A DNA stretch of 64,000 nucleotides from Streptomyces sp. NBC_00247 (GTDB lineage: Bacteria > Actinomycetota > Actinomycetes > Streptomycetales > Streptomycetaceae). The position numbers were made by a program, and so were the translations under genes. Below the pieces are notes generated by a model that was given only the letters and a program-made list of their open reading frames with translations, was not told the DNA's origin and did no database searches. Positions 33,878 to 45,168 of the stretch are shown here, one piece after another; the first letter of the stretch is position 1, and each line of letters starts with the position of its first letter. The DNA lies in the NCBI RefSeq assembly GCF_036188265.1, contig NZ_CP108093.1, forward strand, positions 2,046,001 through 2,110,000, in the 5' to 3' direction.

Positions 33878-34058
33878 TACGACCTCCCTACCCCATGAGC
33901 GACCGCGACGGGCGGTCTGCGTATTGAACCAGCGGCAGGACCAACGCTGCTGGCAGGGGGGCGGTTACGCAAATCGGGGCTGATCCGTGCCCGTACGGTT
34001 TGCGGCCGGGAACCACGGTCGGGCGCGGTCGGGCGGTCATCGGGTCGTCCCGGCCGGT

Positions 34059-34532
34059 TCAGCAGGCGCCGACCCATTCCTCGGTGCCGTCCAGGAAGCG
34101 CTGGTGCTTCCAGATCGGCACCTCGTGCTTGAGGTCGTCGATCAGCTTCCGGCAGGCCTCGAACGCCTCCGCCCGGTGCGGGCAGGCCACGGCCACCACT
34201 ACCGCCAGATCGCCCACGTCGAGTTCACCCACCCGATGGACGGCGGCCAGCGCGCGGACCGGGTAGTCGGCGACGACCTTCTCCGCGACCCTGCGCAGCT
34301 CGTCCTCGGCGGACGGATGGCAGGAGTAGCCGAGCGCCCCGACGTCCTGGCCCCCGTCGTGGTTGCGCACCGTGCCGACGAAGAGCGAGATCCCTCCGGC
34401 CGCGTCGTCCCCCACCGCCCGGAAGACCTCGTCGAGGGAGAGCGGGGTCTCGCGGATCGCGAGGAGCCGGAGCGGGTCGGCCGCGGCCCGCTCGCCGGGG
34501 TGGTCGCCGCGGTGGTCGTGAAGGGATGCCAT
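34059..34532 (-). CDS. moaE: Molybdopterin synthase catalytic subunit MoaE
   Basis: Protein of 157 residues. The MoaE core is visible: AGGISLFVGTVRNHDGG, LGYSCHPSAEDELRRVAEKV, VHRVGELDVGDLAVVVAVACPHRAEAF and the catalytic lysine region DLKHEVPIWKHQ (Lys135/Lys142). It transfers sulfur from MoaD to precursor Z in molybdenum-cofactor synthesis. It is the only Moco gene in this window; the other subunits must be elsewhere. The ATG 34532 is chosen as the first Met near the conserved core. Confidence 0.94.
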   Translation of the reverse strand: MASLHDHRGDHPGERAAADPLRLLAIRETPLSLDEVFRAVGDDAAGGISLFVGTVRNHDGGQDVGALGYSCHPSAEDELRRVAEKVVADYPVRALAAVHRVGELDVGDLAVVVAVACPHRAEAFEACRKLIDDLKHEVPIWKHQRFLDGTEEWVGAC

Positions 34533-34670
34533 GGGGCCATGGTGCCGCACGGCGCGGGCGCGACGGAAACACGTGTTCCCTCCCGCCGGGAAGCGGCCTG
34601 CCGCGAACGGTGGCAGCGGTGCGGAGCGCGGGCGGCGGGGCGCGTGGGCGGATCGGCGGGCCGCCGGGGG

Positions 34671-35762
34671 TCAGATCCGGCGGCGGGCCTTGCGGGCGCG
34701 GCGGACCAGGGCGGCCGTACCGAGCAGCGCGACCGTCGCCCCGGCGGCGCCCGCGGCGGTGGCGTCCTTGCGGCCGAGCCGGCGGCCGGCCAGCGTGTGG
34801 CGGCCCTCCACCTCTTCGAGGAGCGCGGCCAGCACGTCCTCGTTGGTCCAGCGGGGGCGCCAGCCGACGTCGTGCAGCCGGCCCACGCTGACCACCCAGG
34901 GGTGCATCGTGTAGGCGAGGTCGCCGGCCGGGGAGGGGGTCAGTCCGATCCGGTGCAGCCGGGCGGCGGCGCCCAGCGCGACCGCGGAGGGCAGCTCCAT
35001 GCGGCGTACCCCGCTGAGCTCCTCGACCTGTTCCTGCTCCAGCCACCCGTCGCAGCCGACGGCGAACTCCCCGTCGATCCGTTCCAGCGCCGCGTACTCC
35101 AGGGCGCTGACCAGGTCCTCCACGTGGCAGAACTGCCAGGTCGGCCGCGATCCGGCCACCACCAGCAGCCGGGGGGACTCGAAGTAGCGGGTGAGCGCGG
35201 TGTCCGTCCCGCCGACCAGGACGGCCGGGCGGACGACGGTGACGTTCAGGCCGGGGTGGGCACGCGGGGCGCGGCGGCCGAGACGCTCGATCTCCAGCAG
35301 GTCGCCGACGCCGGTGGCCTCCGCGGTGGCCCGCAGTTCGGCGTCCTCGGAGAGGGGGATGTCGTTGTCCGGCAGGGCGCCGTAGACCATCGCGGAGGTG
35401 CAGAGCACCACCCGGTGGACGCCCACCGCAGCGGCGGCGGTGAGCACGGTCTGGGTGCCGCGCACGTTGTAGGCGGTACGGGCCGCCGCGTCGGTCTCCA
35501 GATCCAGGTCGACGGCGAGGTGGACCACGACGTCCGCGCCCCGCAGCTTCTCGGCGATGGCGGGATCCCGCACGTCCAGGACGTGCCAGGTCACCCCGGG
35601 TACGTCCGCGCGCCGCTCGTCGATCGCGACGACCCGCCCGATCTCGTCCGACGCGGCGAGGTGCGCGGTCAGCAGCGCCCCCACTCCGGTCGCCGCGCCG
35701 GTGACCGCGACGACGGGGCCCCGCTTCCCGGAAATGTTTTTCGCGGGCTTCTTCTCGGTCAT
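34671..35762 (-). CDS. Extended SDR/epimerase-fold protein lacking the YxxxK motif
   Basis: Protein of 363 residues. The NAD(P)-binding motif is clear (VAVTGAATGVGALLTAHL), as are DVVVHLAVDLD, RVVLCTSAMVYGA and VTVVRPAVLVGG, typical of NAD-dependent epimerases. The catalytic YxxxK expected after the SAMVYG segment is not found; the region reads VGDLLEIERLGRR. The C-terminus ends in an Ala-rich hydrophobic helix followed by RRARKARRR, suggesting a membrane anchor. It may be a non-catalytic or atypical SDR. The start follows from the MTEKKPAKN N-terminus. Confidence 0.82.
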   Translation of the reverse strand: MTEKKPAKNISGKRGPVVAVTGAATGVGALLTAHLAASDEIGRVVAIDERRADVPGVTWHVLDVRDPAIAEKLRGADVVVHLAVDLDLETDAAARTAYNVRGTQTVLTAAAAVGVHRVVLCTSAMVYGALPDNDIPLSEDAELRATAEATGVGDLLEIERLGRRAPRAHPGLNVTVVRPAVLVGGTDTALTRYFESPRLLVVAGSRPTWQFCHVEDLVSALEYAALERIDGEFAVGCDGWLEQEQVEELSGVRRMELPSAVALGAAARLHRIGLTPSPAGDLAYTMHPWVVSVGRLHDVGWRPRWTNEDVLAALLEEVEGRHTLAGRRLGRKDATAAGAAGATVALLGTAALVRRARKARRRI

Positions 35763-36006
35763 GGGGTCGTTCAGGTTTCGCGCTCCGCGAACCTGAGGAT
35801 CTGGGGAACTCACCAGGCGTCTCCAGCGGTTGTCTTCAGTACGTACCCGAGTCGAGGCGTGCGTACCTGGTGGCGTCCATCCTGCCGCAGCCCGAGTCCC
35901 GGCGGAGCACTGAGCCCCTGAGCCGGAGCGGGTGTCTACGCTGGATGGTGACAAGCCGGGCACCGCCGCCGGTTCCAGCCGGCGGCCCTACGAGCCGAGG
36001 AAACCC

Positions 36007-37500
36007 GTGAGTGACACCCCATTCGGATTCGGCCTTCCGCCGGAGGAGCCGGAGAACGGCGACGGCAAGAAGAAGGACCCCATCGAAGGTGGGCAGGGTC
36101 AGAGCGGACCGGCGAACCCGTTCGGCTTCGGTCCCGGTGCCGCCGGCGACAACCCGTTCGCGGCCATGTTCGGTTCGATGAACCCGAACGACCTGGGCGC
36201 CGCCTTCCAGCAGCTCGGCCAGATGCTGAGCTACGAGGGCGGGCCGGTGAACTGGGACATGGCCAAGCAGATCGCCCGCCAGACGGTCTCGCAGGGCACC
36301 CAGGACGGCAGCAAGGACGCGAGCGTCGGCCCCGCCGAGCGCGCGGCCGTCGACGAGGCCCTGCGGCTCGCCGACCACTGGCTGGACGGTGTGACCTCAC
36401 TGCCCTCCGGCGCGGTCACCACCGTGGCGTGGAGCCGTGCGGAGTGGGTCGAGGCGTCCCTTCCGGCGTGGCAGCAGTTGGTGGACCCGGTGGCCGAGCG
36501 CGTCGGCATGGCCATGGGCGACGTGCTGCCCGAGGAGATGCAGGCGATGGCCGGCCCGCTGATCGGCATGATGCGGTCGATGGGCGGCGCCATGTTCGGC
36601 CAGCAGATCGGGCAGGCGGTGGGCGTCCTCGCGGGCGAGGTCGTCGGTTCCACGGACATCGGGCTGCCGCTCGGTCCGGCGGGCAAGGCGGCCCTGCTCC
36701 CGCTGAACGTCGAGCGTCTCGGCAAGGACCTGAGCGTCCCGCTGGAGGAGGTGCGGCTCTACCTCGCCCTGCGCGAGGCCGCCCACCAGCGGCTCTTCGC
36801 GCACGTCCCGTGGCTGCGCTCGCACCTGTACGGCGCGGTCGAGTCCTACGCGCGCGGCATCAAGGTCGACACGTCCAAGCTGGAGGACGTCGTCGGGCAG
36901 TTCGACCCCTCGGAGCCCCAGCAGCTTCAGGACGCCCTTCAGCAGGGCATGTTCCAGCCGGAGGACACCCCGGAGCAGAAGGCCTCGCTGGCCCGTCTGG
37001 AGACGGCGCTCGCGCTGGTCGAGGGCTGGGTGGACGCGGTGGTCCACGAGGCGGCGAAGCCCCGTCTGGGCTCGGCGGACGCGCTGCGCGAGACGATGCG
37101 CCGACGCCGTGCCTCCGGCGGTCCCGCCGAGCAGACCTTCGCCACGCTCATCGGGCTGAAGCTGCGCCCGCGCCGGCTGCGGGACGCCTCGCGCCTGTGG
37201 GCCTCGCTCACGGACGCCCGGGGCGTGGAAGGCCGCGACGGCCTCTGGGAGCACCCGGACATGCTGCCGACCGCCCAGGACCTGGACGATCCGGACGGCT
37301 TCGTCCACCACGAGCAGCTGGACTTCTCCGAGCTCGACAAGATGCTCGGCGAGGCCGCGAGCGGCGGTGCCCCGTCCAAGGACCCGGCACCCGAGGACCC
37401 GGCACCCGAGGGCACCACGCCGAAGGACACTGCGGCCGGGAGCGACGGCGGGACCGACGGCAAGGACGGCTCCGACCCGAAGGGCGACACGGACCGGTGA
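36007..37500 (+). CDS. Zinc-dependent metalloprotease-like protein (DUF2342 type)
   Basis: Protein of 497 residues from GTG 36007 (VSDTPFGFGLPPEEP); GAGG lies eight bases upstream. The core contains PAWQQLVDPVAERVG, a Gly-rich FGQQIGQAVGVLAGEVVGS segment and a degenerate zinc signature LREAAHQRLFAHVPWL at about 255-270, the pattern of the actinobacterial DUF2342/zinc-protease family (Rv3195 type). The N- and C-termini are Gly/Pro/Asp-rich. Protease activity is not established. The Nudix gene overlaps its stop codon. Confidence 0.82.
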   Translation: MSDTPFGFGLPPEEPENGDGKKKDPIEGGQGQSGPANPFGFGPGAAGDNPFAAMFGSMNPNDLGAAFQQLGQMLSYEGGPVNWDMAKQIARQTVSQGTQDGSKDASVGPAERAAVDEALRLADHWLDGVTSLPSGAVTTVAWSRAEWVEASLPAWQQLVDPVAERVGMAMGDVLPEEMQAMAGPLIGMMRSMGGAMFGQQIGQAVGVLAGEVVGSTDIGLPLGPAGKAALLPLNVERLGKDLSVPLEEVRLYLALREAAHQRLFAHVPWLRSHLYGAVESYARGIKVDTSKLEDVVGQFDPSEPQQLQDALQQGMFQPEDTPEQKASLARLETALALVEGWVDAVVHEAAKPRLGSADALRETMRRRRASGGPAEQTFATLIGLKLRPRRLRDASRLWASLTDARGVEGRDGLWEHPDMLPTAQDLDDPDGFVHHEQLDFSELDKMLGEAASGGAPSKDPAPEDPAPEGTTPKDTAAGSDGGTDGKDGSDPKGDTDR

Positions 37501-38033
37501 GCCTGCACCACGACGCCGCCCTCGTGCTCAAGGCGTACGAGGGCGGCGGTCACGCCGGTCAGGCGGAGCTCCGCCAGACGTACCTCGACCATCTCGACGC
37601 CCATCCCGACGGGATGTGGAAGGCCTGCGGGGCGGGGCATCTGACCGCCAGCGCGCTGGTGCTGGACCCGGCGGCGGACAGGGTGCTGCTGACCCTGCAC
37701 AGGAAGCTCGGCATGTGGCTCCAGATGGGCGGCCACTGCGAGCCGGAGGACGCCACCCTCGCGGACGCCGCGCTGCGGGAGGCCACCGAGGAGTCCGGCA
37801 TCGACGGCCTGGTGCTGCTGGCCGGCGGCCCGGTGCGCCTGGACCGGCACCCGATCCCGGCTCCCTGCCACTGGCACCTCGACGTGCAGTACGCCGCGCT
37901 GGCCCCCGCCGGGGCCACGCAGCGGATCAGCGAGGAGTCGCTGGATCTGCGCTGGTACCCGTACGACGAGGTGGCCGGGGTCGCCGACGCCTCGGTGGTA
38001 CGGCTGATGGAAGCCGCCCGAGCGGCGCTCTGA
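37497..38033 (+). CDS. Nudix hydrolase
   Basis: Protein of 178 residues starting at a GTG that overlaps the previous stop (GTGA), so it is coupled to the zinc-protease-like gene. The Nudix helix is GGHCEPEDATLADAALREAT followed by EESG; spacing in the first half is two residues longer than the textbook box. An HWHLDVQYAALAP strand follows. The enzyme should hydrolyse a nucleoside-diphosphate-linked substrate, not predictable here. Confidence 0.87.
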   Translation: MSLHHDAALVLKAYEGGGHAGQAELRQTYLDHLDAHPDGMWKACGAGHLTASALVLDPAADRVLLTLHRKLGMWLQMGGHCEPEDATLADAALREATEESGIDGLVLLAGGPVRLDRHPIPAPCHWHLDVQYAALAPAGATQRISEESLDLRWYPYDEVAGVADASVVRLMEAARAAL

Positions 38034-38044
38034 CCCGCCCGTAC

Positions 38045-38090
38045 GCCACAGGGGCGGCCCCTCCGTCGATGGAGGGGCCGCCCCTGTGGC
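38045..38090. terminator. Perfect 20-bp terminator hairpin
   Basis: 38045-38064 pairs perfectly with 38071-38090 around GTCGAT. It lies between the Nudix gene and the convergent AIM24 gene. Confidence 0.85.
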
Positions 38091-38143
38091 GCAGCTGGGC
38101 GCGTGGTCCGTCCTGGGACGTGTCGCGGAGTCCCGGCTGTCCG

Positions 38144-38173
38144 ACGGGAATGGCCGGACACGGCCATTCCCGT
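38144..38173. terminator. Second hairpin in the convergent region
   Basis: ACGGGAATGGCCG (38144-38156) pairs with 38161-38173, three bases from the AIM24 stop codon. It probably ends the minus-strand operon. Confidence 0.7.
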
Positions 38174-38175
38174 GC

Positions 38176-38922
38176 TCAGTTCCAGGCGTTGTTCTGGTTC
38201 TGGTTCTGCGAGCCCACGCCGTACTGGCCGCGTATGCCCTGGCCGATCTGGGCGTGCTGCGGGGGCATGACCTCGCTGGGCTGGACCAGCGCGAAGCCCT
38301 CGCCGAGGAAGCTCAGCTCCCAGCCCTCGCCGGTGTTGCCCCGCCTGCGCATGACGCCCGAGGAGTGCGTCTGCGCCTGCATCTGGACCCGGAGCGAGCT
38401 TGACCAGGCGACGATGGCGTCGGCGTCGGCGTTGACGTACTTGTCCGGCGTGACCTGGAGCATCAGCGGCTGCCCCGAGGTCATCAGCGCGACCTTGCCG
38501 GAGCCGGTGATGTTGAGCTGGTACTTGCCCGTGCCGGAGATGCCGTACTGGCTGTCCACGGCGATGACCTCGGTGTGCAGCGAGGAGTCGAGCGCCAGGA
38601 CGTAGGCGCTGTCGACCGTCATCCCCGCGTGGTCGACGTCGACCACGTGGATGTACTGCGCGAGGTTGGCGAAGTACACGGTGCCCTGGCCCGTGCAGCG
38701 CATCAGGTCGAGACCCTCGCCCGTGCGGGCCCGGGCGTTGCGCTGGGAACTCGACTGGTACTCGCCGTCGAACTCCATCAGCCCCTGGTAGGCGACCATG
38801 GCGCCCTTGCGGGCGAGCACGGCGTCGCTGCCCGTCAGGGAGACCCGCAGCAACTGCGGGTTCTGAACGGTGTACCGCTCCGAGGACTGCTGCTCGGTGT
38901 GGGCGAAAAGCGGACTCTGCAT
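38176..38922 (-). CDS. AIM24-family protein (third gene of TerD-AIM24 operon)
   Basis: Protein of 248 residues of the AIM24 beta-sandwich family (domain about 15-225). Typical segments are NPQLLRVSLTGSDAVLARKGAMVAYQGLMEF, LDLMRCTGQGTVYFANLAQYIHVV and a C-terminal GEGFALVQPSEV. A short Gln/Asn-rich tail ends the protein. AIM24-type proteins occur in bacteria and mitochondria; the bacterial function is unknown. It starts 17 bp after the second AIM24 gene, so all three genes form one operon. Confidence 0.88.
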   Translation of the reverse strand: MQSPLFAHTEQQSSERYTVQNPQLLRVSLTGSDAVLARKGAMVAYQGLMEFDGEYQSSSQRNARARTGEGLDLMRCTGQGTVYFANLAQYIHVVDVDHAGMTVDSAYVLALDSSLHTEVIAVDSQYGISGTGKYQLNITGSGKVALMTSGQPLMLQVTPDKYVNADADAIVAWSSSLRVQMQAQTHSSGVMRRRGNTGEGWELSFLGEGFALVQPSEVMPPQHAQIGQGIRGQYGVGSQNQNQNNAWN

Positions 38923-38939
38923 GGTGTCTCTCCCTCCCT

Positions 38940-39620
38940 TCAGGACCGGACGCGGAGGCGGTCGGTGCTGTCCTCGCTCGGCTGGACGACGACGATGCCC
39001 TGGCCGGAGAAGGCCATCTGGTACGCCTCGCCGCTGCCGCGCCCGATGAGCGCGCTCGCCTTGAAGCTCCGCTTGCCCTTGATCTTGAGGTTCGGCGACC
39101 AGGCGACGAGGGCGTCCGGGTCGACGTACGTCTCGTCCTCGCCCCGGCCGCAGTCGACCACGATCGGGGTGCCCCGGGAGGTGATGGCCACCCATCCGGT
39201 GCCTTCCACGACGACGTTCCACAGGCCCTGGCCGGCGAACTTCGCCATCCCCTTGACCCGCTCCACGCCCCAGCCCAGGTGGGCGTCGAAGGCGAGGAGG
39301 TTGGTGCCGTTGACCGAGATCGACTCGTTGTTGAGGTTGATGACGACCACGTCGGCGCCGTAGTCGGCGAGGTAGAGCAGGCCGTCGCCGGAGCACTTCA
39401 TGACGGGGGTGCCCTCGCCGGTGACCCACTGGGAGGCGATCTGCCGGACGGCGGGCGGGTTGGGTTCGTACTGGATGAAGCCTTCGTAGGCCACCATCGA
39501 ACCCGTACGGGCGTAGAGGTCCTGGCCGGTGGCCATCGCCACCTTGAGCATCGAGTGGCCGTGGTTCTCCATCCGCGCGGTGACGGGGGTCGGGGCGTAG
39601 GCCGCGAGTTGCTGGTTCAT
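38940..39620 (-). CDS. AIM24-family protein (second gene of operon)
   Basis: Protein of 226 residues, almost entirely one AIM24 domain: MLKVAMATGQDLYARTGSMVAYEGFIQYE, PVMKCSGDGLLYLADYGADV, VNGTNLLAFDAHLGWGVERVKG and FSGQGIVVVQPSED. It is paralogous to the neighbouring gene and to the C-terminal half of the upstream gene. It starts 11 bp downstream of the TerD-AIM24 fusion gene. No signal peptide is seen, so it is probably cytoplasmic. Confidence 0.88.
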   Translation of the reverse strand: MNQQLAAYAPTPVTARMENHGHSMLKVAMATGQDLYARTGSMVAYEGFIQYEPNPPAVRQIASQWVTGEGTPVMKCSGDGLLYLADYGADVVVINLNNESISVNGTNLLAFDAHLGWGVERVKGMAKFAGQGLWNVVVEGTGWVAITSRGTPIVVDCGRGEDETYVDPDALVAWSPNLKIKGKRSFKASALIGRGSGEAYQMAFSGQGIVVVQPSEDSTDRLRVRS

Positions 39621-39631
39621 GGCAGGCTCCC

Positions 39632-41233
39632 TCAGACCTCGTAGGGCTGGACGACGATGAAGTTGCCGGGGGCTCCCCGGAACTGGAGGTTCACGGTCTC
39701 CCCGCTGTGGCCGGGGTACGCGTTGCGGCGCAGCCGGACCTGGCTGGAGATGATGACCTGGGCGGCCGACGACCAGGCGACGACGGCGTTGCAGTCGGCG
39801 AAGGTGGTCGGGGTGACCGGCAGGACGACCGGCACACCGTGCGTCTTGACGACCACGGTGCCGGTGCCCTGGAACTGCATGGTGAACAGGGCTCCGCCGG
39901 GGATGCCGTGGCCCTCCACCCTGCGGACCTCGTACTGGAGTGATTCGTCGAAGGCCAGGACGTTCTCCGCGGAGACGCAGATGCCGTCGCCCTGGAGCTC
40001 GATGGGGTGCAGGTGGGCACCCTCCTCGGCGAGGAAGACCTGGCCGCGGCCGGTACAGCGCATGAGCTGCATCTCCTGGCCGGTGGCGTTGCCCACGACC
40101 CGGCCGGTGAAGCCGGCGCCCTTGTAACCGAAGTCGACCTTGCCCTGGTACATCACCATGCTGCCCTGACGGGCCAGCACGGGGTTGCCTCCGAGGGTGA
40201 GATCGACCCGCATGAGCTGCTGGTTCTGCGGGGTCCAGCGCTGTCCGGTCGGCTTCTCCTTGTACGGCTGGAGTGCCGCCGCGAGTCCGGCGCCGGCCGC
40301 CGGGGCGCCTTGCGGCACTCCCTGCGGGAGACCGCCGGGCTGCTGGCCGAAGGGTGCCTGCGGCGGCTGGCCGAACTGCTGCGGGGGCTGCTGGCCGAAC
40401 TGCGGCTGCCCGTAGGCCTGCGGGGGCTGCTGGCCGTACGGCGGGCCGGCCTGGCCCGGGACCTGCCCGAACTGCGGCTGCTGCGGCGGCTGGCCGTACG
40501 GGGCGGGGGCCTGCGGTGCGACCGGGGCGGCGATCGTGGGCGCCGCGTGCAGCGGCTGCGCGGGGGCCGCCGGCGCTCCGAACGACGGCGCGGGCTGCGG
40601 CGGCGCCTGGGAAGCGGCGGGCGCGCCGAAGGCCGGCGGCGCGGACGCCTGGGCCGGCGGCGCGAAGGAGGGTGCGCCCTGCTGCGCGGCGGCAGGCGCT
40701 TCCTCCTCGGCGACCTCGCCGCCGAAGTTGCGCAGGAGCGCGTCGAGCCCGCCGTCGAATCCCTGTCCGACCGCGGCGAACCGCCAGACGTCCTTCAGAT
40801 AGAAGTCCCCGAGCATCACCGCGCGTTCGGTGGTGAATTCGGAGCCGGTGAAGGCGTACCGCACCACTTCCTCACCGCCCGCGACGATCCGGATGTATCC
40901 GGGGCCGACCTGGGACATCTGGCCGGCGCCGTCGACGGTCGCCGTGAACGACAGCTTGTGGATGTTGGCCGGAATACGATCCAACGTCACCCGGAACGAC
41001 TCGGTGTCACCGGACTGCGCGCCGAGCAGCTGAATGGACTCCTCGGGCGATTTCGGCTGATTGAAGAAGATGAAATACCGGTCGTCCGACAGCTGTTCGT
41101 CGGCGTCGAGGCCGAAGCAGCTGATGTCGAAGGTCAGCCCCGGGCCTGCGATCTGCACACCTACGTACAGATCCGTCCCTGACGTGAGATCACTGATCTT
41201 GGCCTTGTGGCCGCGTTGGAATTCCCTGGCCAT
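39632..41233 (-). CDS. TerD-AIM24 fusion protein
   Basis: Protein of 533 residues. Residues 1-175 are a TerD domain: DLYVGVQIAGPGLTFDISCFGLDAD, DDRYFIFFNQPKSPEESIQLLG and VVRYAFTGSEFTTERAVMLGDFYLKDVWRFAAVGQGFDGG. Residues about 180-318 are a Pro/Gln/Ala-rich linker with many QPPQ and FGQ repeats. Residues about 319-533 form an AIM24 domain (QQLMRVDLTLGGNPVLARQGS onward). TerD proteins bind calcium and act in tellurite and phage resistance or stress. This fusion is the first gene of a three-gene operon with two AIM24 paralogues. Exact role unknown. Confidence 0.9.
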   Translation of the reverse strand: MAREFQRGHKAKISDLTSGTDLYVGVQIAGPGLTFDISCFGLDADEQLSDDRYFIFFNQPKSPEESIQLLGAQSGDTESFRVTLDRIPANIHKLSFTATVDGAGQMSQVGPGYIRIVAGGEEVVRYAFTGSEFTTERAVMLGDFYLKDVWRFAAVGQGFDGGLDALLRNFGGEVAEEEAPAAAQQGAPSFAPPAQASAPPAFGAPAASQAPPQPAPSFGAPAAPAQPLHAAPTIAAPVAPQAPAPYGQPPQQPQFGQVPGQAGPPYGQQPPQAYGQPQFGQQPPQQFGQPPQAPFGQQPGGLPQGVPQGAPAAGAGLAAALQPYKEKPTGQRWTPQNQQLMRVDLTLGGNPVLARQGSMVMYQGKVDFGYKGAGFTGRVVGNATGQEMQLMRCTGRGQVFLAEEGAHLHPIELQGDGICVSAENVLAFDESLQYEVRRVEGHGIPGGALFTMQFQGTGTVVVKTHGVPVVLPVTPTTFADCNAVVAWSSAAQVIISSQVRLRRNAYPGHSGETVNLQFRGAPGNFIVVQPYEV

Positions 41234-41276
41234 GCGTAACGACCGTCCCCCATCCCGAATGTGAATGCGTCGCGTC

Positions 41277-41307
41277 AGGCTATCCGCAAACTACGACATT
41301 GAGCCAA
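41277..41307 (-). promoter_or_regulatory. Possible promoter of the TerD-AIM24 operon
   Basis: On the minus strand TTGGCT (41307-41302) and TAGCCT (41282-41277) are 19 bp apart, 44 bp upstream of the start codon. Spacing is slightly long. Confidence 0.45.
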
Positions 41308-41340
41308 GTCGGTACACACTCGGTACAGAGTCACCGATCG

Positions 41341-41961
41341 TCACTCCTCCCGCGCGGTGGGCAGATGCGGCAACCGGTCCACCGCCACCACGCCTTCGAG
41401 GTACCCCCGGGCCCGCTCGGTACGCGGATAGGCCTCCAGCAGGCGCCAGAAGTCGGGCCCGTGTCCGGGCACGAGCAGGTGGGCGAGTTCGTGGACGAGT
41501 ACGTAGTCGACCACGTACTCCGGCATCCCCTGCAGCCGGTGCGAGAGGCGGATGCTGCCCTCGGCGGGCGTGCACGAGCCCCAGCGGGTGTTCTGGTTGG
41601 TGACCCACCGCACCGAAGCCGGCCGGGCCCGGCCTCCGAGGTACTGGGCGGAGAGGCTCGCGGCCCGCTCCACGAGCGCGCCGTCGCCGAGCACCCGGCG
41701 GCTCTCCTGGGCTGCCAGTTTGTCCAGCATCACCCCGACCCATCGGCGCTCCTCGGCCTCGGACATCCGGGCGGGGATGAGCACGATCGTGCGGTCGCCC
41801 TCGCGGTAGGCGGAGACCGTCCTGCGGCGCCGGTCGCTCCTGCGCACCTCCACGGCGCTCGTCGCGGCCGGGCGGATCGGGCGGGTGGCACCGCGCTGCG
41901 GTACAGCGGCGGAGCGCGCGGGAATCTCCCCGGCGAGGCCGGGTGACGGATCGGCGGGCAC
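41341..41961 (-). CDS. YgjP/SprT-like zinc metallopeptidase
   Basis: Protein of 206 residues from a GTG start. The metal site is VDYVLVHELAHLLVPGHGPDFW, with His157 and His161 of HELAH and a third histidine at 167. The upstream VRWVTNQNTRWGSCTPAEGSIRLSHRL block is diagnostic for the YgjP-like (DUF45/M48-related) family. The first 35 residues are variable. It is probably a cytoplasmic peptidase of unknown target; family members are often linked to DNA-repair systems. It is upstream of the TerD-AIM24 operon with a 107-bp gap. Confidence 0.88.
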   Translation of the reverse strand: MPADPSPGLAGEIPARSAAVPQRGATRPIRPAATSAVEVRRSDRRRRTVSAYREGDRTIVLIPARMSEAEERRWVGVMLDKLAAQESRRVLGDGALVERAASLSAQYLGGRARPASVRWVTNQNTRWGSCTPAEGSIRLSHRLQGMPEYVVDYVLVHELAHLLVPGHGPDFWRLLEAYPRTERARGYLEGVVAVDRLPHLPTAREE

Positions 41962-42150
41962 GCCTCGACGTTACCCGCTGTTCCCGGCAGAAGTACCGCC
42001 TCCCCTGCGGTTCCTCTCCGATCCCCGCAGGAAGCACACCATTTGAACGACTAATTCCCTCCCTTGTGGATAACTTTCGGCGGGTTTCGGGCTCCGACGA
42101 CATTCTGTGAGCGGAGGGAGACCGGAGGAGTCCGGCCCGACGCTCCGCCG

Positions 42151-42177
42151 TATCCGCCGTATCCGCCGTATCCGCCG
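42151..42177. repeat. 9-bp tandem repeat, three copies
   Basis: TATCCGCCG is repeated exactly three times at 42151, 42160 and 42169. Confidence 0.95.
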
Positions 42178-42218
42178 ACGAGCCGTATCGGGTCGCCGGC
42201 CGCATCCGTCGTCAACCA

Positions 42219-42258
42219 CGTCCGTGAACTGCCTCGTCCGTGAACTGCCACGTCCGTG
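42219..42258. repeat. 16-bp tandem repeat upstream of the E1-like gene
   Basis: CGTCCGTGAACTGCC begins at 42219 and 42235, and a third partial copy (CGTCCGTG) begins at 42251; the period is 16 bp. It lies 40-80 bp before the start codon and may bind a regulator. Confidence 0.85.
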
Positions 42259-42300
42259 GCCGACCGCGGAAGAGCGGCCCGACCGTAAAGGGAGAAAGAG

Positions 42301-43443
42301 ATGCATCCGATGCTGAAGCCCGCACTGCGCCGCGCTTGGCGTGGACGGAGCACCGTGCAATTCGGGGTCACTCCCGCGCACGCGGTCACCTTCGGTCCTC
42401 TGGATATCGCCACGGGAAGTTTCCTGGAGCTGCTCGACGGCACCCGGGGGCTGCCCCTGCTGAAGGAGGAGGCCCGCTCCCTGGATCTGGCGGAGCGCCA
42501 TGTGGACGTGCTCGTCGAGCGGCTGGCGGGCGCAGGCCTCTTGGACGACCCCCACGCGGGTGGCGCGGAGGCTGCGGCCCTACGCCGCCGGGCCGATGTC
42601 CTGGACCGCCAGCGCCCGGACGCGGCCTCACTCTCCCTGGTGCATCCCGAACCGGGGAGCGCGGTCCGCCGGCTCGCCGCGCGGCGGGCGATGCGCGTAC
42701 AGGTCCGGGGCGCAGGCCGGGTCGGTGCGGCGATCGCGGCCCTGCTCTCGGGTTCGGGGGTGGGCCGGGTGGACGTGCTGGACGGTGGTCTGACGGAGCC
42801 GTGGGACGTGGCACCCGGCGGCCTCCCGCCCTCGGCGGTCGGGGAGCGCCGCGATGTCTCGGCCCGTCGGCTCGTGCGCCGGTCGGCCGCCGGAGCCGCC
42901 CCGCGCACGACGGAGGCGGACGTAGGGCCGGAGGGCGGCGGCCCCGGCCTCTCCTTGGTCGTGGTCGCCCCGCGCGACGGACTCGCGGTGTACGCCCCCG
43001 ACCCGGGGACGGCCGAACCATGGATCTCCTCGGGCACCCCCCACCTGTACGCGGGAGTGATCGAAGCCACCGGGGTGGTGGGCCCGCTGGTGCTGCCCGG
43101 AGGCACGGGATGCGCGGGCTGTCTGGGCCTGCACCGGGCGGACCAAGACGCGCAGTGGCCTCGCATGGTGGCGCAGTGGCGGACCGGACGGCGGGGGGCG
43201 GTACCCGCCTGCGACCTCGCGCTGTCGGCAGCGGTGGCCGGGCTCGCCGCCTCGCACGCCCTGTCTTTTCTGGACGGTGAACTGCCGGCGATCACGGGCT
43301 CCCGGTGGGAAGCCGCGCTTCCCCTCATGGAGTGGCGCGGCGAACGAATCGCTCCCCACCAGGCGTGTGTGTGCGGCGCCGCTCGCACCACCGGGGCGCT
43401 TTCCCCCGCCTCGGGCCCGGCGCGCGACACAATGGCCGGGTGA
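42301..43443 (+). CDS. Orphan E1/ThiF-like protein with TOMM-cyclodehydratase character
   Basis: Protein of 380 residues. Residues about 18-85 resemble a winged-helix/RiPP-recognition-like module. A nucleotide-binding Rossmann motif VQVRGAGRVGAAIAALL follows at 133-149, with the acidic strand VDVLDGG. The C-terminal half has GPLVLPGGTGCAGCLGLHRA (Cys271, Cys274) and ACVCGA (Cys356, Cys358), a zinc-type Cys4 set found in E1-like TOMM cyclodehydratase partner proteins. No YcaO, dehydrogenase or precursor gene is nearby, so a RiPP pathway is not indicated. The next gene is an ABC1 kinase. Confidence 0.75.
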   Translation: MHPMLKPALRRAWRGRSTVQFGVTPAHAVTFGPLDIATGSFLELLDGTRGLPLLKEEARSLDLAERHVDVLVERLAGAGLLDDPHAGGAEAAALRRRADVLDRQRPDAASLSLVHPEPGSAVRRLAARRAMRVQVRGAGRVGAAIAALLSGSGVGRVDVLDGGLTEPWDVAPGGLPPSAVGERRDVSARRLVRRSAAGAAPRTTEADVGPEGGGPGLSLVVVAPRDGLAVYAPDPGTAEPWISSGTPHLYAGVIEATGVVGPLVLPGGTGCAGCLGLHRADQDAQWPRMVAQWRTGRRGAVPACDLALSAAVAGLAASHALSFLDGELPAITGSRWEAALPLMEWRGERIAPHQACVCGAARTTGALSPASGPARDTMAG

Positions 43444-43506
43444 CCGCCATCGCCGGATCGATGCGAAGGGCGCACCGGCACCGCAGTTCACGAACTGGAG
43501 GAGCAC

Positions 43507-45168
43507 ATGTCCGATCTTCCCCGCAAGGCGGTCACCCGCACCGCGAAACTGGCCGCCCTGCCGCTCGGCTTCGCCGGCCGGGCCACGTGGGGCCTGGGCA
43601 AACGGATCGGGGGCAGGCCGGCCGAGCTGGTGGCCAGGGAGGTGCAGCAGCGGACGGCGGACCAGCTCTTCAAGACCCTCGGGGAGCTGAAGGGCGGTGC
43701 CATGAAGCTCGGTCAGGCGCTCTCCGTGTTCGAGTCCGCGCTGCCCGAGGAGGTGGCCGGTCCGTACCGGGCGGCGCTGACGAAGCTCCAGGAGGCCGCT
43801 CCCCCGATGCCGGTGCGGACGGTCCACGGGGTGCTCACGGAGCGGCTCGGTGAGGGCTGGCGCGATCTCTTCCTCTCGTTCGACGACCAGCCGGCCGCCG
43901 CCGCCTCCATCGGCCAGGTACACCGGGCGGTCTGGCACGACGGGCGCGATGTCGCGGTGAAGGTGCAGTATCCGGGTGCCGGGGAGGCGCTGCTGTCGGA
44001 TCTCACTCAGCTCAGCAGGTTCGCGCGGCTCCTCGGGCCGTTGATCCCCGGCCTGGACGTCAAGCCGCTGATCAAGGAGATGCGCGACCGGGTCTCGGAG
44101 GAGCTGGACTACGCGCTGGAGGCGCGGGCGCAGGAGGAGCACGCGGCCGAGTTCGCGGGCGACCCCGACGTGGTCGTCCCCGGAGTGGTGCTCCAGTCGG
44201 ACCAGGTTCTGGTGACGGAGTGGATGGACGGCATCCCGCTGTCCGAGGTGATCGATCGGGGGACGGTCGAGCAGCGGAACCGGGCGGGCCAGTTGCTCTC
44301 GCGTTTCCTCTTCTCCGGGCCGGCCCGGACGGGCCTGCTCCACGCCGACCCGCACCCGGGCAACTTCCGCCTCCTGCCACCCGTCGGGGAGGAACCGGCC
44401 GCCGTCGCGCCGGAGGCCCCCCTGCCGGATGCCCCGCCTTGCTCCGGGGAGTGGCGGGAGTGGCGGCTCGGGGTGCTCGACTTCGGGACGGTCGACCGGT
44501 TGCCGGGCGGGCTGCCCGAGATCATCGGCGAGGCCCTGCGGATGACGCTGCTCGGCGAGGCGGAGGAGGTGTATGCCCTGCTGCGGCGGGCGGGCTTCGT
44601 TTCGGAGTCGGTGGATCTGGACCCCGACGCGGTCCTGGACTACCTGGTCCCCGTCATCGAACCGGCCCAGGTGGAGGAGTTCGCCTTCAGCCGGGGGTGG
44701 CTGCGCACCCAGGCGGCCCGGATCGCAGATCCCCGCTCCCCCGCGCACCGGCTCGGGAGGCAGTTGAACCTTCCACCCTCCTATCTCCTCATACACCGGG
44801 TGACGCTGAGCACGATCGGGGTGCTCTGCCAGCTGGGCGCGACGGTGCGCCTGCGGGACGAGCTCGAAGCGTGGCTGCCCGGCTTCCCGGAACCGGGCGG
44901 TGCGGGTGGGACGACCGGTGCGGGCGATGCGGACGGCGCGGGCAGTGCGGGTGGGACGACCGGCGCGGGCGGCGGCGGCGAGGGCCCGGACGCCTTGATC
45001 GGCGCGGAGGGTCCGGACGGCGCGGAGGGTCCGGGACGTCCCGGACTACGGGGTACCTCGGACGACCCGAGTACGCGGACGGAGCGCGCGGCGGGCGCCG
45101 AGCGAACGGGCCGAGGGCGGCGGAGTGCTTCCGACGGACGGACCGGGCGGGAGACCGAGGAGGTGTGA
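43507..45168 (+). CDS. ABC1/UbiB-family atypical protein kinase
   Basis: Protein of 553 residues. Family motifs are present: KLGQALS (67-73, the KxGQ motif), the Ala-rich nucleotide loop AAAASIGQVH, VAVKVQYPG with the lysine, LLHADPHPGNF (catalytic loop) and LDFGTVDRL. ABC1 proteins act in isoprenoid-quinone or lipid biology and have ATPase activity. The last 120 residues are a Gly/Ala/Asp repeat region with no fold visible. It lies 63 bp downstream of the E1-like gene; in M. tuberculosis the homologue is next to whiB7 as here. Confidence 0.92.
   Translation: MSDLPRKAVTRTAKLAALPLGFAGRATWGLGKRIGGRPAELVAREVQQRTADQLFKTLGELKGGAMKLGQALSVFESALPEEVAGPYRAALTKLQEAAPPMPVRTVHGVLTERLGEGWRDLFLSFDDQPAAAASIGQVHRAVWHDGRDVAVKVQYPGAGEALLSDLTQLSRFARLLGPLIPGLDVKPLIKEMRDRVSEELDYALEARAQEEHAAEFAGDPDVVVPGVVLQSDQVLVTEWMDGIPLSEVIDRGTVEQRNRAGQLLSRFLFSGPARTGLLHADPHPGNFRLLPPVGEEPAAVAPEAPLPDAPPCSGEWREWRLGVLDFGTVDRLPGGLPEIIGEALRMTLLGEAEEVYALLRRAGFVSESVDLDPDAVLDYLVPVIEPAQVEEFAFSRGWLRTQAARIADPRSPAHRLGRQLNLPPSYLLIHRVTLSTIGVLCQLGATVRLRDELEAWLPGFPEPGGAGGTTGAGDADGAGSAGGTTGAGGGGEGPDALIGAEGPDGAEGPGRPGLRGTSDDPSTRTERAAGAERTGRGRRSASDGRTGRETEEV

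Follow-up and report, generated by a model that had tools for sequence, protein, structure and literature searches.

A conserved trio of a TerD-AIM24 fusion and two AIM24 proteins in Streptomyces and other actinobacteria: a likely heteromeric assembly lacking the canonical TerD calcium loop

A set of three adjacent genes coding for a TerD-AIM24 fusion protein (A) and two further AIM24 proteins (B and C) was analyzed in Streptomyces sp. NBC_00247, within a stretch of 64,000 nucleotides of contig NZ_CP108093.1 (positions 2,046,001 to 2,110,000; hereafter the window, whose numbering is used throughout). The closest protein in the database, P0001, is also from Streptomyces, at 96% identity. The three-gene arrangement was confirmed as real and beyond chance, because different families share the same gene number and order, and the trio is an old unit. 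The original prediction, made from the letters of this DNA, had proposed a heteromeric assembly recruited by a calcium-binding TerD domain. Its heteromeric part stands as a well-supported inference from the fixed set of A, B and C in varied neighborhoods, and it is likely that the three proteins join in one AIM24 assembly; the calcium part is not supported.

All three genes lie on the reverse strand, in the order A (39632..41233), B (38940..39620, 226 aa) and C (38176..38922, 248 aa), separated by spacers of 11 bp (39621..39631, reverse strand) and 17 bp (38923..38939, reverse strand). Open reading frames (ORFs) and Pfam matches bear out the predicted fusion followed by two AIM24 genes with these gaps: TerD (PF02342) was matched in A with 124.3 bits against a cut-off of 25.3, and AIM24 (PF01987) in A, B and C with 88.4, 127.3 and 107.4 bits, respectively, against a cut-off of 25.7. 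According to the ORF, Pfam, the fold and an alignment of 25 sequences, A consists of TerD (residues 1-170), a linker (176-330) and AIM24 (339-530). The Pro/Gln-rich nature foreseen for this linker is evident in its 155 residues (39 Pro, 29 Gln, 36 Ala, 19 Gly), and residues 176-327 nearly all have a predicted local distance difference test score below 50 in the predicted model. Protein C, delimited by sequence, Pfam and start, begins at the ATG at 38922 with the N-terminus MQSPLF, which is also how its relatives begin, and ends in a Gln/Gly/Asn-rich C-terminal tail. The predicted fold of B is that of the solved AIM24 proteins SpyM3_0169 (1pg6) and PA3696 (1yox), at 15-23% identity; these are single-domain proteins with no TerD.

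The distribution of the trio was examined in 246 genomes drawn evenly from the class, of which 121 had AIM24; 24 of the survey rows belong to Streptomyces, and 105 genomes without a match have no row. Three adjacent AIM24 genes occur in 24/24 of the listed Streptomyces genomes, 21 of them read as loci and three by coordinates only, with the same spacing. Together with 15 loci of Frankiaceae, 36 survey loci of this type were read, and the complete TerD-AIM24, AIM24, AIM24 set is visible in 31, the other five reaching contig edges; TerD is in frame in 20 of the 21 Streptomyces loci, the remaining one being cut by a contig edge. A named scan provided 80 loci among the matches listed, some on contigs shared with the survey, from Frankia, Parafrankia, Pseudofrankia, Dactylosporangium, Virgisporangium, Streptomyces, Actinacidiphila and other genera. 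Among them, exactly three consecutive AIM24 domains in the order A-B-C on the match strand were found in 79 of the 80, the single exception (L138) being cut off by a contig edge; the first AIM24 shares its frame with TerD in 53, and 23 lie too near a contig edge to show TerD. The A-B-C order held in every locus read. One locus on the same contig as another (L133, with L092) was excluded from the trees, one of 10 bases (L093) from the scans, and an out-of-frame row (L110) was dropped. Conservation of the operon had been named beforehand as a test of the prediction, which it passes in the Streptomyces genomes as well as in Frankiaceae, Dactylosporangium and Virgisporangium.

By rough gene calling, the genes around the trio differ between Streptomyces (metallopeptidase, ThiF-type protein, ABC1 kinase and zincin) and Frankiaceae (aldo/keto reductase, a Spo0M-like gene and others). 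The neighbors vary and the trio remains whole; it is therefore a conserved unit. Three Dactylosporangium loci (L151, L153, L154) carry three extra TerD domains directly upstream of A, where, in the first 3.4 kb, one ORF has two of these TerD domains and a second joins the remaining one to a long additional region (Pfam check on L151); these ORFs overlap or nearly abut the trio. In five Frankiaceae loci (L137, L146, L150, L155, L161) C has a long Pro/Gly-rich N-terminal extension, in contrast to Streptomyces C.

A tree of 155 AIM24 domains, including those of eight lone and three lone-fusion loci, resolves the domains of A (36), B (36) and C (35) into one clade each across Streptomyces and Frankiaceae (supports 0.997, 0.984 and 1.0, respectively), with A and C as sister clades (0.94). 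The proteins of Dactylosporangium and Virgisporangium join the same three clades. Identity between C and B is 30-33%, and between families it reaches 50-54% for A and 51-58% for B. Judged from these sequences, the split into the three paralogues predates the split of the families.

The association of TerD with AIM24 extends beyond this trio. The source genome encodes seven AIM24 domains, which belong to this trio, to a second one and to a solitary protein. The second trio (C1:1892528-1894427; L077:6535-8428) consists of three AIM24 genes (D, E and F) with no TerD, followed by a MarR-type regulator; among the loci read, 11 of 12 have three AIM24s and L079 has four. D forms one clade (0.996), 11 of 12 E domains fall in one clade (0.95), and F forms one clade save that the fourth copy of L079 falls inside it; members of second trios also form largely position-specific clades in other actinobacteria. 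In Tsukamurella, the equivalent of the second trio is headed by an unfused TerD and lies inside a Ter gene cluster with two further TerD genes, DUF475, an HpcH/HpaI aldolase and a phosphoribosyltransferase. Lone TerD-AIM24 fusions were found in four loci (L081, L091, L130 and, in Nocardia, L224). Their AIM24 belongs to the B side and their TerD domains fall outside the A-TerD clade (0.87; other supports 0.1 to 0.98), so the fusion probably arose more than once, and repeated fusion is good evidence that TerD and AIM24 act together. A plasmid of Deinococcus taeanensis (L225:5995-7377) carries another TerD-AIM24 fusion, annotated as AIM24 family only, near TerD and VWA genes, and in two Bacillota plasmids a single detected AIM24 gene adjoins TerD. 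AIM24-like and TerD-like stretches were also seen in the phage records MT835541.1, OP628075.1 and OP628076.1, the TerD-like ones being annotated as TerD in Lysinibacillus phages.

The reading preferred here, though at slightly less than even odds, is that A, B and C form a single mixed 1:1:1 AIM24 oligomer with TerD on a flexible tether, and that this oligomer would provide the Ter stress system with a scaffold arm. The three proteins would bind one another, probably as a 1:1:1 trimer, given that AIM24 proteins form trimeric or ring-like assemblies. The Pro/Gln-rich linker would be a flexible tether bearing one TerD domain per assembly, the TerD arm would dock the scaffold onto other TerD and TerC proteins at the inner membrane, and the scaffold may organize membrane proteins under stress, as reported for fungal AIM24 proteins. 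A stricter form, in which the trio makes an obligate hetero-trimeric AIM24 ring with TerD as the sensor arm on a disordered tether and works as a membrane-organizing Ter effector, comparable in bacteria to the AIM24 scaffolds by which fungi organize hyphal tips and mitochondrial membranes, is doubtful.

Several points weigh against a shared assembly. The named scan was seeded with B and cannot return loci lacking it; TerD and the first AIM24 lie in different frames in L148, L175 and L204 (the first two contain N bases); and in L166, with full DNA upstream of the AIM24 trio, TerD was not detected. B-side AIM24 occurs without A and C in the four lone fusions, and the lone AIM24 protein L088 groups with B in one tree, though not in that of 155 domains. 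The predicted model of A is of low quality in its AIM24 part past residue 476, no TerC was found among the nine proteins scanned at 33987-45168, which leaves the tie to the Ter core in trans, and the idea of membrane scaffolding rests on distant eukaryotic relatives. Related paralogues can, moreover, be co-expressed and yet build separate homo-oligomers. Alternatively, each AIM24 protein might homo-oligomerize for a task of its own, the operon only co-regulating them. The six chains of one protein in the solved entry 1yox suggest that AIM24s may self-assemble, the fungal AIM24 protein EOP-1 binds itself according to the available text of PMC13075794, and the independent occurrence of B-side AIM24 and the single AIM24 genes of the Bacillota plasmids point the same way. 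This alternative is nevertheless rather unlikely: the A and C clades hold trio members only among the treed domains, and the constancy of exactly three AIM24s, both in the named scan and in the second trio, argues against separate homo-oligomers.

The possible scaffold role draws on fungal and yeast proteins. The available text of PMC13075794 describes EOP-1 as having a Pro/Gln-rich arm and being recruited in hyphae to the membrane, where it oscillates at the tips of germlings and of fusing cells, and IDC4 is its Podospora relative (available text of PMC6162560). The latter source describes bacterial AIM24 proteins, in the part available, as lacking the Pro/Gln stretch. Gene A contradicts this statement: like EOP-1 and IDC4 it has a disordered Pro/Gln-rich stretch directly before the C-terminal AIM24, a likeness for which no membership of that family is claimed. 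Unlike the bacterial trio, EOP-1 and IDC4, as described there, have no TerD and no paralogue trio, and the likeness is likely convergent; by analogy it supports a scaffold-like way of working, not common descent. Yeast Aim24, which is reported to be a scaffold with a link to MICOS (cited in the available part of PMC6162560), shares the AIM24 domain with the trio and differs, in that account, in being a single mitochondrial AIM24 protein with no TerD. The linker could itself be the active part, driving condensates or filaments, with AIM24 supplying only multivalency. Its low complexity and low model confidence over 155 residues and the Pro/Gly-rich extensions of C in several Frankiaceae would suit this; across the 25 aligned sequences, however, the two domains show strong conservation and the linker between them varies in sequence and length, a pattern that a simple tether would be expected to give, which makes the proposal improbable.

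The TerD part of A has the fold of solved TerD proteins, its top structural match being 9a6r_B (E 5e-13); 3ibz of S. coelicolor (E 5e-12) and 2kxt of Klebsiella (E 4e-10) were matched as well. The first of these is SCP2 in an integrative model entitled GLPD-SCP2; judging from the title, a TerD protein was modeled there with a metabolic enzyme. In contrast to the canonical TerD structures, A lacks the DNxTGxGxGDDE loop and the DxDxD motif, whose positions we take to be the calcium ligands. Neither the loop nor its GDDE box, nor the motif within the first 190 residues, was found in any of 52 A orthologues. Alignment of A with 3ibz and 2kxt shows a five-residue deletion before the loop and changes at two of the three DxDxD positions, one of which is retained in two of the 25 aligned A sequences. 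The source genome has 11 TerD domains, ten besides A, and nine of these were checked for the loop, omitting a partial one (L018): four have it together with the DxDxD motif. The other five, with no AIM24, likewise lack it; its loss is therefore not special to fusions. It was also absent from the four lone fusions, the Deinococcus fusion and the TerD heading the Tsukamurella trio. The calcium-binding character originally ascribed to the TerD of A is thus not borne out. That calcium binding to this domain switches the assembly on, as might be supposed from the calcium binding of Klebsiella TerD and the effect of a Streptomyces TerD gene on calcium homeostasis (both as cited in the available text of PMC8123226), is very improbable in view of these orthologues, of the A and 3ibz alignment and of the four TerD proteins of the same genome that do have loop and motif. 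At that site the TerD of A would read a partner or another ligand instead of calcium; specialized nucleotide derivatives have been put forward in the literature as possible ligands of TerD (PMC7159879, in the part available).

AIM24 beside TerD is already known: the association was noted in 2012 by Anantharaman, Iyer and Aravind (as cited in the available text of PMC5822837), and TerD and AIM24 co-occur in their Ter clusters as in the trio. Compared through that citing description, what appears to be new is the fixed trio, with TerD fused by a long linker, exactly three AIM24 paralogues and a place in the source genome apart from the Ter core. No study of this conserved TerD/AIM24 trio was found in the literature. 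The Ter core lies at about 5.149-5.157 Mb, some 3 Mb from the trio in a genome of 7.34 Mb, and contains two TerD genes, TerC/DUF475, a further TerD that lacks the canonical loop, a gene for a C-C bond lyase and one for a phosphoribosyltransferase (PRTase)/StiP protein with PRTase_2, TRSP, StiP and PELOTA domains. Both Tsukamurella and the source genome thus have the TerC/DUF475, lyase and PRTase genes of Ter stress clusters, as far as these are described in the available source. Around the trio itself no Ter operon of the terZABCDE type was found, TerD occurring only in A among the nine proteins at 33987-45168, and the trio could serve the Ter core from a distance. The least probable alternative, an anti-phage or toxin-type conflict system, would fit the reported effect of Ter operons on phage infection (as cited in the available text of PMC5822837) and the TerD domains of predicted conflict systems (available text of PMC7159879), but is countered by the presence of the trio in every listed Streptomyces genome, as opposed to the usual patchy spread of defense systems, and by the lack of effector domains in the Pfam scan of the same nine proteins. 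No PADLOC protein model matched A, B or C at E 0.01, an absence that in itself excludes nothing.

A promoter-like box, TAGCCT, lies at 41277..41282 on the reverse strand, its last base 44 nt before the start codon of A. Within 110 nt upstream of A, the part of the operon scanned, TAGCCT occurs in all 36 Streptomycetaceae-type loci, among the matches listed, for which the start of A was mapped and the upstream DNA was long enough, at 48-66 nt in 33 of them and 83-107 nt in three (49 nt in the window by the same measure), against 36 of 5500 random 110-nt windows from the same loci. Nearer the gene, a 5' leader with a G run resembling a ribosome-binding site, GGGATGGGGGACGG (41243..41256, reverse strand), is strongly conserved in 37 aligned upstream regions. 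The short gaps in Streptomyces leave little space for more promoters; those of Frankiaceae reach about 190 bp. A, B and C are likely to form one transcript.

The trio is flanked on its 5' side by a YgjP-like metallopeptidase gene, also on the reverse strand (41341-41961), and on its 3' side by a convergent ORF without Pfam match (37508-38033). Farther along, on the forward strand, a ThiF-type protein (42301-43443) has a sub-threshold match to a TOMM leader-peptide-binding model (31.9 against 36.9 bits) and weak E1-E2 PADLOC matches, and an ABC1-type kinase (43507-45168) matches the model of the macrolide-binding ATPase MABP-1 over a long stretch, though far below its cut-off (441 against 800 bits).

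To our knowledge, there is no agreed molecular function for AIM24 or for TerD, though both are widespread. The fusion of TerD to AIM24 and a paralogue number fixed at three predict a defined, purifiable complex. Such a complex would reveal by what route the Ter stress system acts on its targets, and whether AIM24 serves bacteria as the scaffold that it is reported to be in fungi.

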